A stretch of 35,802 nucleotides of DNA from an uncultured Alphaproteobacteria bacterium (GTDB lineage: Bacteria > Pseudomonadota > Alphaproteobacteria > RF32 > CAG-239): NCBI GenBank assembly GCA_947630965.1, contig CANRJO010000009.1, forward strand, positions 1-35,802. The letters are read 5' to 3'. Every line of letters starts with the position of its first letter. Positions within the stretch are counted from its first letter, which is position 1. The notes under the pieces were generated by a model that worked only from the letters and a program-made list of their open reading frames with translations, had not been told where the DNA came from and ran no database searches. Both the position numbers and the translations under genes were made by a program. This document shows positions 26,536 through 30,285 of this stretch, in pieces.

Positions 26536-26570
26536 AATATGGATTTAATTATTGTCCTGGATGCTTCCTC

Positions 26571-26723
26571 TTGCTCGTAAGTTTTGCGTTAAGCGCAAAA
26601 CTAACTCGCTTCGGTCACCGCTCTGTAACGCTTGCAGCGGTGTCTATCGCCACCTCGCAAGCTAACAGTCGCGTGATGTCGCCTAAAAAACAACAATTAC
26701 TTTTGTTGTTTTTTAAGGCTCCA
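26571..26723 (+). repeat. Dispersed ~150-bp repeat, copy A
   Basis: Runs from TTGCTCGTAA to GGCTCCA; nearly identical to 29986-30138 and 30140-30285 in the same orientation. Internally it has ACCGCT/AGCGGT inverted arms, a GTTTTGCG...CGCAAAAC palindrome and a poly-A/T hairpin (AAACAACA...TTGTTGTTT). Any open frame across it is a by-product of the repeat. Confidence 0.85.
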
Positions 26724-26911: not shown

Positions 26912-29581
26912 TTAGAACTTGTATTTGGCTGACAAGATTCCTGAGTGGTCTTGGTACTCATCACGGAACCGACCCTCATAACCGGCGGACACTTCCCATT
27001 GAGAAGTGATGTCGGTGGCGAGTTTCGCGCCGAGTTCATAGCCAAAGCGTTCCAGTTTTTCGCCGTTCACGCGGTATGACGTGTTGCCCATGGTCACAAT
27101 AGAATCATTGTTGTCAGCATCCAAATCATACGTTAATGCGGCACGAACTTCCGGACGAATCGTCAGGCTGTCTGTTAAAGCAAAGTTCTTCGCAACTTTT
27201 ACGCCGGCAACTGCCGTTAACACATCAATGTCACGAGCTTTCACGCGAACACCTAAAGCATTCGTTGAGGCGTCTTGCGAGGCACGCAAGTATCTCAAAC
27301 CTGCTTCAGGCGTGACGTCGTAATCGTTTTCAACATGGAAGTTGTAACTGAACATGCCTTGCAATGCCAAAGTGTCGACATCGTATTTTGAATCGGCATT
27401 TTCGCCCAAGACAGATTTCTTCTCTTTATAGTCTGACCAACTGTAAGCGGCGACGCCTTTAACGTACCAGTCTGCCGGTTGATATTGACCATAAACAAAA
27501 GCAGTGTGTGTTTTGACGTCTGTGTTGCGGGTGTAGCCGTCAATGTCCGACTTGCTGTAGGCATAACCTAAGCCGACCTTGCCGTTGCCGACTTCTTTAT
27601 CAACACCCATGGCGGCGCCATAAGTATCCATGTCAAAACCGTGTGCTTTGGAAGTGTCGTCTTTGTCGGCGTAATTGAACAAGCCTTTGACCCAGATTTT
27701 GGCTTTTTCAAAGACGCTATCGCCTGAGGATTGACCGACTGTAGCGTTTTGAAGTGTATTACTCAAAGCCTCATCAGCAGTGTCAAAAATCATGTTGCTC
27801 AACATGGTTGCATGCGTGCGAACCACGGGAGCACCGTCAGCGCCTAAAGCATCTGTCGCACGGCTAACAGCTTCAGAATTGACATTCGTGTCTTGCGCCA
27901 TATCTGCCAAAGTGTTTTGAAGTTCATTTAACTTTTCATTGGTTGATTTGGTACGCATGATACCTAAAAGCGTATCAGCTTCGACTTTCTTCACGCCCAA
28001 ACCAGAAGCCACTTCACCGGCGGATTTTTCTTCAGATGTGTATGTGCCGTCTTCAGTTTCCGTATATCTGAAAAGACCATTTTCGGTTTTGAGATGTTTT
28101 TCTAAGTCTGAATATTTCTCTTCGCCAAAGATATCTTTTAGCGAAAATCCACTCTCACCCGCTCTGAGCTTGACATTGATGTTCGTGCCTTCCGACTTAT
28201 CCTCTACTGTTACTTTGGATGCAATTGTCGTATTGCTGTGAACATTTAAGATTGAACCTTCCTCAAGCGTGAATGTGCCACCACTACCCGTGATACCACC
28301 GTCTAAGGTTAACGAAGAACCGTCTTTAACGGTTATTTTACCTGTTGTGTGATTGTAAATATCGTTTAACTTGCCATTGGCTGAATTGTTAGAAAATACT
28401 GTATTCCCGTCAAATTCTAACTTACCGGCGTTAAAAATGGCACCGCCATATTGAGCGGAGTTGTCGGTAAAGGTTGCATCTTTCTCAAATGTAATATTTC
28501 CGTTTTCGGCGAGTGAGTAAATCGCCCCGCCAAATTGGTCAGCATTGTTATGATCAAAGATGGCATTATCTTTAAATGTAAGTGTGGATTTACCTTCTGT
28601 AAAAATAGCGCCACCATAATCAAGACTGTTATTTTTTCTAAAAGTTGAAGTACCACCAAATTCAAGGGTACCGCCATTATTATAAATGGCACCACCTCTG
28701 GAGCCCATTTGCTGACTACCTTGAGTCGCCCCGCCTTTTTGCGTTGTGCTATTATTTTCAAATAAAGCATTTCCGTTAAAGGTAATTTTGCCCCCATTAG
28801 AAATTGCGCCACCATTATTTTTTGCCTTATTTCCCGAGAATGTTGTATTTTCTCCAAAGGTAAGTGTACTTGCGTTATTGTCAATGCTGACTGCCGCGCC
28901 AAAAGTTGCCTCATTTCTCGCAAACAAGGCGTTGTTACCGATAGTTACGTCATTTTTTCCTGCCAATGTTAAAACGCCAGTACCGCTAATAGGGTTTTCT
29001 TCTGACTTTGTTGCATGGCTAAGCTCTACACCCATTTTATTATCAACAAAGGAAACATTGTCGCCAATCGTGGCTGTCACGCCATTATAAAGGTAAACAA
29101 TACCATTGGCTGCTGTGTTTCCAGAAAAAGTTGCATTTTTACCGATTGTAAGGATATTTCCTTCCCCTTTATAGTTTGTGCCTTCAACATAAATAGCGCC
29201 ACCCATTTCAGTCTTTGTTTTGCCATTATTGTCATTAAACTTTGGATCTGTTTCGTTCATAATGCTTGTGTTATTTTTGAAAGTGACATTGTCGCCAATA
29301 ACAAGTTTATCGTAAGCGGAAATTGCGCCACCCGTGCGTTGAGCAGAGTTGCCTGAAAAAGTAACACCGTCTTTTACGGTTAATGTGCCTTTTGTGTGAT
29401 AAACGGCACCACCTTGCGCATCAGTTTTATCGCCGGCATGCAGACCGTCCAGATTTTCACTGATGGTTTCATCTGCCGTCGTTACTTTATGTGTTGCATC
29501 TCCAGTTTCAGCCCAAGCGTTTGCGGTAAAGGCAAAAGCCACGCTGACAAGAGCTGTTGTTAATAAAAGATTGTTTTTCAT
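26912..29581 (-). CDS. Pmp-repeat autotransporter adhesin
   Basis: 889 residues. A signal peptide (cleavage near residues 22-25) is followed by a passenger of about 400 residues with many GGAI and FxxN motifs (for example FSGNSAQRTGGAIS, FRKNNSLDYGGAIF, FTDNSAQYGGAIF), the paired hallmarks of Chlamydia-type polymorphic membrane protein repeats that form a right-handed beta-helix. A linker precedes a C-terminal autotransporter beta-domain of roughly 270 residues (from about WVKGLFNYADKDD), ending in SAKYKF with the terminal Phe. It is exported by Sec and anchored in the outer membrane; likely a surface adhesin. No protease or passenger catalytic site seen. It has an unusual structured leader with an intrinsic terminator and lies between direct repeats. 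Confidence 0.9.
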   Translation of the reverse strand: MKNNLLLTTALVSVAFAFTANAWAETGDATHKVTTADETISENLDGLHAGDKTDAQGGAVYHTKGTLTVKDGVTFSGNSAQRTGGAISAYDKLVIGDNVTFKNNTSIMNETDPKFNDNNGKTKTEMGGAIYVEGTNYKGEGNILTIGKNATFSGNTAANGIVYLYNGVTATIGDNVSFVDNKMGVELSHATKSEENPISGTGVLTLAGKNDVTIGNNALFARNEATFGAAVSIDNNASTLTFGENTTFSGNKAKNNGGAISNGGKITFNGNALFENNSTTQKGGATQGSQQMGSRGGAIYNNGGTLEFGGTSTFRKNNSLDYGGAIFTEGKSTLTFKDNAIFDHNNADQFGGAIYSLAENGNITFEKDATFTDNSAQYGGAIFNAGKLEFDGNTVFSNNSANGKLNDIYNHTTGKITVKDGSSLTLDGGITGSGGTFTLEEGSILNVHSNTTIASKVTVEDKSEGTNINVKLRAGESGFSLKDIFGEEKYSDLEKHLKTENGLFRYTETEDGTYTSEEKSAGEVASGLGVKKVEADTLLGIMRTKSTNEKLNELQNTLADMAQDTNVNSEAVSRATDALGADGAPVVRTHATMLSNMIFDTADEALSNTLQNATVGQSSGDSVFEKAKIWVKGLFNYADKDDTSKAHGFDMDTYGAAMGVDKEVGNGKVGLGYAYSKSDIDGYTRNTDVKTHTAFVYGQYQPADWYVKGVAAYSWSDYKEKKSVLGENADSKYDVDTLALQGMFSYNFHVENDYDVTPEAGLRYLRASQDASTNALGVRVKARDIDVLTAVAGVKVAKNFALTDSLTIRPEVRAALTYDLDADNNDSIVTMGNTSYRVNGEKLERFGYELGAKLATDITSQWEVSAGYEGRFRDEYQDHSGILSAKYKF

Positions 29582-29612
29582 ATGAATGAACCTTTCTTTT
29601 TAATCAATTGTT

Positions 29613-29639
29613 AAAAGAAAAACCACCTTAAGAGGCGGT
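29613..29639 (-). terminator. Intrinsic terminator/attenuator in the autotransporter leader
   Basis: On the minus strand ACCGCCU, loop CUUA and AGGUGGU form a 7-bp stem (one G-U pair) followed by UUUUCUUUU. The G-U pair becomes A-C on the plus strand, so it is specific to minus-strand RNA. It ends only about 32 bases before the autotransporter start. Confidence 0.7.
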
Positions 29640-29868
29640 CGGAGAGTTCATCAATCATACTACATAAAATGACTCTTTTAGCCTTTGAGCCGAAGCTTTG
29701 GACATTCGCTAAAAGCTCCCCGACCATAGGACTATGAATCGGGGATATATATACTATCAGCCAAACTTGTAGCTGACAATATGACGACATTATATCCTAA
29801 CGCCGTATGTAGTTGAGCCGATGAAAGCTCCGTACCACTCGGGTACTAAGCATGAAAAAGTTTTCATG
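29640..29868 (-). ncRNA. Structured leader or small RNA candidate upstream of the autotransporter
   Basis: Read on the minus strand, this segment has several hairpins in series before the terminator at 29613-29639: CATGAAAA/TTTTCATG (29851-29868 region), GTACC/GGTAC (about 29832-29846), TCAGC/GCTGA (29757-29776), CCCCGA+CATA/TATG+TCGGGG (29718-29744) and CTTTTAGC/GCTAAAAG (29675-29715). A short motif TTGAGCCGA...AAGCT occurs twice (29807-29831 and 29682-29703, plus-strand reading). No convincing protein frame is seen. No known RNA family was recognised. Bases 29869-29950 hold nothing I can identify. Confidence 0.45.
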
Positions 29869-29950
29869 CCTGAAGGCACTGTAGGATATTATTTTAGAAA
29901 ATGCAAGGGGAAAATTAAAAGAATGTGTATTATGAGTAATGAGCTATATT

Positions 29951-30138
29951 TTCCTGGATCCTTCGCGAATGCCCTTCGGGCTTTCTTGCTCGTAAGTGTT
30001 GCGCTTAACGCAAAACTAACTCGCTTCGGTCACCGCTCTGTAACGCTTGCAGCGGTGTCTATCGCCACCTCGCAAGCTAACAATCGCGTGATGTCGCCTA
30101 AAAAACAACAATTACTTTTGTTGTTTTTATAGGCTCCA
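29951..30138 (+). repeat. Dispersed repeat, copy B, with CCTGGATCC leader
   Basis: 29986-30138 repeats 26571-26723 almost base for base. It is preceded at 29951-29985 by TCCTGGATCCTTCGCGAATG and a CCCTTCGGG hairpin that recur at 35656-35698, so the full unit appears to be about 190 bp. Confidence 0.85.
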
Positions 30139-30139
30139 C

Positions 30140-30285
30140 TTGCTCGTAAGTGTTGCGCTTAACGCAAAACTAACTCGCTTCGGTCACCGCTCTGTAACGC
30201 TTGCAGCGGTGTCTATCGCCACCTCGCAAGCTAACAATCGCGTTATCTCGCTTTCAAAACACCGATTATTTTTATTTTTTCATAG
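30140..30285 (+). repeat. Dispersed repeat, copy C (tandem to B)
   Basis: Directly follows copy B in the same orientation. Matches it to about 30244 and then diverges, ending in a T-rich tail before the lipoprotein promoter. Confidence 0.82.

Follow-up and report, generated by a model that had tools for sequence, protein, structure and literature searches.

The window, i.e. the whole analysed stretch of 35,802 nucleotides, carries on its minus strand a structured leader RNA followed by the gene for a Pmp-repeat autotransporter. On this strand the segment 29582–29890 has a minimum free energy of −109.8 kcal/mol, compared with −70.5 ± 4.8 kcal/mol for shuffled sequences (z −8.2, 0/100). The plus strand of the same segment folds more weakly (z −3.5). 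A terminator-like hairpin of 8 bp (29640–29621) has its T-run on the minus strand and ends about 32 nt before the ATG (29581–29579). The structured leader with a strand-specific terminator that was described in the initial annotation is thus confirmed, and it is more extensive than was noted there. The following features were assigned.

29878–29906, minus strand: predicted promoter TTGCAT-17-TACAGT, expected start near 29872 (7/12 match in the window)
29613–29872, minus strand: whole leader RNA, about 260 nt (fold z −8.2 and homologues)
29847–29871, minus strand: P1, 5' hairpin of variable sequence (fold prediction, also in homologues)
29832–29846, minus strand: P2 hairpin GUACC/GGUAC (fold; covarying variants by eye)
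29815–29830, minus strand: P3 hairpin (95.7% paired) with decoy strand b (29824–29820) in its loop
29806–29812, minus strand: decoy strand a, partner of a' (95.1% paired; 7/7 pairs change on both sides)
29785–29805, minus strand: P4 hairpin, whose loop GGAUA forms a pseudoknot with UAUCC at 29747–29743 (94.8% and 97.9% paired)
29718–29744, minus strand: P6 hairpin CCCCGAU/GUCGGGG, mutually exclusive with P7 (99.6% paired)
29637–29725, minus strand: core closed by P7, 29725–29716 with 29646–29637 (P7 99.8% paired, almost invariant)
Between 29726 and 29725, minus strand: predicted RNase P cut
29675–29715, minus strand: H5 helix, 29715–29708 with 29682–29675, and inner hairpin (98.7% paired; 6 pairs change on both sides)
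29655–29672, minus strand: H6 hairpin with a' (29666–29660) in its loop (97.3% paired)
29641–29652, minus strand: b' (29652–29648), then anti-Shine-Dalgarno CUCUCC (across the clade, complementary to the start site of the same locus)
29636–29634, minus strand: GCC after P7 (RCC at the stem end)
29613–29640, minus strand: intrinsic terminator (97.6% paired; 2 pairs change on both sides)
29579–29597, minus strand: target T, AAAGGUUCAUUCAUAUG across the start codon (interrupted duplex with own S3, −11.0 kcal/mol)
26912–29581, minus strand: Pmp-repeat autotransporter, 889 aa (PF03797 3.6e-46, PF02415 1.1e-18)

The leader RNA and its fold

Hairpins in series had been proposed for this leader. The hairpins are present, but they do not form a simple series. 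The long-range helices a:a' and b:b' and the loop pseudoknot join them into one global pseudoknotted fold. This fold is backed by strong covariation in an alignment of 47 homologues (A2). In this alignment 97.0% of 2,521 cells are paired, compared with 34–46% when the partners are slid. Both-side change is seen in 25 pairs, and the covariation score is 0.334 (shuffled 0.147). Helix a:a' (7 bp) shows both-side change at every position, and b:b' is 96.6% paired with both-side change in four of its five pairs. P6 is nearly invariant and hence shows no covariation. A covariance search in homologues was the check suggested with the initial annotation, and its outcome supports a leader upstream of the adhesin gene that is structured and ends at a terminator.

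P6 and P7 have GGUCGGGG in common and cannot coexist. Folding of the core by itself, beginning at the predicted cut, leaves a' and b' unpaired. Of 102 distinct loci, 51 have a promoter-like site (at least 8/12) in the region ahead of the RNA, compared with 27% expected, and these sites cluster at the position of the predicted leader promoter.

The motif TTGAGCCGA...AAGCT is indeed present twice, in the P3 hairpin (29830–29815) and in a small hairpin within H5 (~29697–29687). This repeat is not conserved in paralogues (e.g. locus L003). Its repetition therefore looks incidental, and it was dropped as a meaningful motif. A simple repeat finder detected no repeat in 29400–30100. An interspersed repeat of about 100 bp with 46 matches in the genome is found at 29985–30085 and 30139–30239, just upstream of the predicted promoter of the leader, and at 26570–26670, just past the 3' end of the autotransporter gene.

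Distribution of the family and kinship with sRNA-Xcc1

By DNA search, the sequence is found at nine places of its own genome, and 24 of the 55 genomes searched contain matches. Within the bacterial family of the window, R1, a covariance model built on the leader core, detects the RNA in 117 of 126 genomes. Across the class the figure is 33 of 289 sampled genomes. The number of copies per genome ranges from one to at least 35; two genomes have at least 35, with all scored candidates matching. Most of the carriers with a name are assemblies of uncultured Alphaproteobacteria, and gut or rumen is given as the sample source for several. The exact core pattern was not found in viral contigs. A 7.5-kb scaffold from human faeces, recorded as unverified 'Bacteriophage sp.' (MT837206.1), contains one RNA of the window-clade type (L185:2501–2644).

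In nearly all loci the RNA is placed shortly before a start codon, as assigned by a simple rule, and the gene just downstream usually encodes a surface, secreted or accessory protein. The 75 downstream proteins comprise outer-membrane barrels, surface antigens, Pmp repeats, pilins, glycosyltransferases, nucleases, methylases and helix-turn-helix regulators. A flagellin-like protein was identified by eye at L021. The genes served are, by predicted product, surface and accessory genes without a shared metabolite. Tandem copies of the RNA are present at L007:1227–1626 and L028:1476–2134. Two copies at L028 each precede a short reading frame; the two frames are near-identical and begin with M(I/T)SKNKNL.

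The Rfam scan of the window returned no family at the gathering threshold and none plausible at E up to 10 in 29400–30200; the window also matches none of the Rfam riboswitch models. The initial statement that no known riboswitch or sRNA family is recognizable is therefore valid for the window when the Rfam thresholds are applied. It does not extend to the wider relatives, among which there are matches to sRNA-Xcc1 (RF02221, cut-off 53 bits). A divergent alphaproteobacterial homologue (L149) scores with both models on the same DNA (36.4 bits with R1, 56.2 bits with RF02221). The window itself is below the RF02221 cut-off, and the best RF02221 score in its genome is 40 bits, at other loci. Across the phylum, 47 of 249 sampled genomes match RF02221, 32 of them above the cut-off.

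The architecture of the window agrees with RF02221 in the closing helix at the foot (P7), the inner, H5-like hairpin, a' in a hairpin loop and the b' strand. Decoy strands upstream and a gene start just downstream are likewise common to both. RF02221 loci follow a common order: first a hairpin that carries b in its loop, next strand a and a variable middle part, then the core containing a' and b', and finally the gene start. The window clade differs by another 5' domain (P4, P6 and the loop pseudoknot), a longer H5 and a true terminator, in addition to its score under the Rfam cut-off. From these sequence comparisons the leader is filed as a new alphaproteobacterial variant related to sRNA-Xcc1.

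In Xanthomonas the mature form of sRNA-Xcc1 has 88 nt by RACE (PMC2996969). The Rfam model is of about the same length (87 positions); it begins at the closing helix and lacks the decoy half. sRNA-Xcc1 is found upstream of symE and in an integron setting in Xanthomonas, and its mechanism was left open by the authors (PMC12444791). In phages Aaphi23 and Rac-SA53 an RF02221 member is located directly before a gene annotated ant (antirepressor), and in Acinetobacter phage 4316 directly before a KilA-N gene (78–86 bits for the three RNAs). At phage RF02221 loci in general, the next gene is often an antirepressor. Among 5,426 E. coli genomes, 158 have a match to the Rac-SA53-type RNA region. A second sub-type, under the RF02221 cut-off, occurs in the same genome as the window (L153–L159), likewise before autotransporter-like and regulator genes. 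Several start sites there read GGATGTT, the complement of AACATCC in the RNA.

Complementarity to the next gene

For 57 diverse RF02221 loci, a' and b' were scored as two colinear segments while the downstream sequences were permuted among loci. Complementarity to the own downstream sequence is 11.0 nt, compared with 6.46 ± 0.44 nt after permutation (0/5,000), although in this and the following permutation tests related loci are not fully independent and shared ancestry is not fully removed. Complementarity to the own upstream decoy is 13.6 against 8.0 (0/5,000), and mid-core control segments gave a null result. This two-way match implies two alternative pairing partners for the RF02221 RNA: its upstream decoy and the start site of the gene that follows. 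Energy ranking alone was abandoned for RF02221 in favour of two-segment complementarity, as it scored poorly (own target best in 1/17). A permutation of duplex energies across GC-rich and AT-rich genomes inflated the own pairing and was replaced by a within-family test.

In the window clade (62 loci), b' and the anti-Shine-Dalgarno pair with the own start site at −11.35 kcal/mol, compared with −10.33 ± 0.21 kcal/mol for permuted loci (0/10,000). This signal stays after removal of row and column effects. For a' against the target the same loci gave no signal, and the control was null. The a'-to-target match of phage-type loci is absent from this clade. The duplex of the window's own RNA with target T (−11.0 kcal/mol) is not significant alone (shuffle p 0.053), and 36 of 83 targets pair better. 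Sequences complementary to the core are found both upstream and downstream of it, in the manner of seqA and seqC (see below), the downstream part being weak in the window clade.

Matched changes are visible within the genome. In the window, P3 contains UCAUC, b' contains GAUGAA and the start site reads GUUCAU. In the paralogue L004 the corresponding sequences are UCAAC, GUUGAA and GUUCAA. The paralogue L003 is an exception, with GUUCUA at the start site.

The initial annotation had offered an attenuated leader or a separate small RNA. This interpretation is partly supported, and the terminated leader is retained. The relatives are leaders with a known small RNA, sRNA-Xcc1, as their 3' half, and this half matches the next start site. 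Leader and small RNA therefore need not be alternatives.

A putative antisense control RNA

Two antisense systems resemble this arrangement. For C4 RNA of phages P1/P7 (RF01695), RNase P cleavage at the base of the P1 stem, on the 5' side, yields an active form of about 77 nt; its a'/b' loops then contact the target, and b' covers part of the ribosome-binding site (PMC5320573). The likeness to C4 concerns a'/b' segments that would be antisense to a ribosome-binding region. RF02221 relatives match the downstream ribosome-binding region with both segments, the window clade only with b' and the anti-Shine-Dalgarno. One of the two C4-type contacts is thus missing in the window clade, because a' has no match to the target. 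The window further differs from C4 by its intrinsic terminator, and the C4 model has no match in the own genome at E up to 10.

The second system is P4 CI, which acts by transcription termination. Its plan is seqA–CI–seqC, with a processed RNA between upstream and downstream sequences that both pair with it (PMC4825925). P4 CI RNA and IsrK of Gifsy-1 share the order of decoy, antisense core and target with the window; the likeness seen is one of layout. By analogy, the window appears to follow the P4 plan and to work like C4, yet it is outside the C4 family by model.

Directly after the closing stem, an RCC is present in 73 of 85 R1-type and 13 of 21 RF02221-type loci (either of two registers), against a background of 1.7% per position. 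In the window clade this RCC is also inside the terminator stem, so that its conservation could serve the terminator. It is therefore only suggestive of an RNase P cut at the foot of P7.

The best reading of these sequences is a domesticated C4/CI-like antisense RNA that represses the autotransporter. We hold it, with somewhat more confidence than doubt, to be a cis-encoded control RNA of the C4/P4-CI type, from an alphaproteobacterial branch related to sRNA-Xcc1. Transcription would start near 29872, decoys a and b would pair with a' and b', and most transcripts would end at the terminator. Cleavage at the 5' base of P7, carried out by RNase P by analogy with C4, would strip off the decoys and expose a' and b' on the remaining core. 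The freed b' and the adjoining anti-Shine-Dalgarno could then pair with the autotransporter start site on read-through mRNA, while a' and b' could pair with decoys of new transcripts. As a consequence of these two pairings, expression of the autotransporter would be low and self-limited. The leader probably turns down its neighbour by base pairing, since its relatives carry segments that match the start site of the next gene. All of this evidence is drawn from sequence, which shows the RNA family with its fold, complementarity in two directions for the Xcc1 branch and at one site for the window clade; the promoter, the cut, the repression and its direction are inferred.

An intramolecular switch, such as a riboswitch or a protein-sensing attenuator, is considered unlikely. 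Here a ligand or protein would set P6 against P7 and a:a'/b:b' against the start site, and the terminator or the start site would be freed accordingly without a separate RNA. The mutual exclusion of the nearly invariant P6 and P7 through GGUCGGGG, the terminator directly downstream and the use of the same leader on many surface and accessory genes of one genome agree with such a switch. It is disfavoured by the lack of a match to any riboswitch family, by target genes without a common metabolic theme and by the Xcc1 relatives, which are a stable 88-nt RNA (PMC2996969) with two-site antisense matches.

A trans-acting small RNA that is terminated here and aimed at distant mRNAs, the next gene being incidental, is less probable still. 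It does not fit well with the placement of almost every copy a short way ahead of a start codon, nor with the complementarity to the own next gene in RF02221 and, for b', in the window clade. It would explain the terminator with its own predicted promoter and an a' without a target in the next gene of the window clade, and sRNA-Xcc1 is called trans-acting in a title cited by PMC8876359. A mobile or recombination element in which folded DNA rather than RNA matters (like attC) is suggested by at least 35 copies in some genomes, tandem copies (L028) and the integron setting of sRNA-Xcc1 in Xanthomonas (PMC12444791), but is very improbable given the strand-specific terminator, the kept G-U pairs, the promoter-like site and the fixed orientation toward the next gene.

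With the cis-encoded antisense RNA, sRNA-Xcc1, which is widely annotated with an unsettled target, gains a testable function, as the gene immediately downstream appears to be its partner. Such cis targeting of sRNA-Xcc1 may already be stated in a 2011 RNA Biology paper. The same RNA logic would be spread across dozens of surface-gene leaders in uncultured gut bacteria, in which, to our knowledge, adhesin control is unstudied. More tentatively, a phage immunity RNA might have been turned, in gut Alphaproteobacteria, into a genome-wide set of up to 35 or more leaders that are addressed individually by a/a' codes of their own. Processed RNAs would then act on decoys or start sites of other copies, so that surface proteins would be expressed selectively.

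In two genomes, three RNA copies (L021:1–100, L036:1–63 and L037:1–99) break off at an identical base, before CTTTTAGCG, where they are joined to a common sequence that contains a long palindrome and ends in GCAATATACAAG. This junction looks like an element or a rearrangement aimed at the leader RNA.
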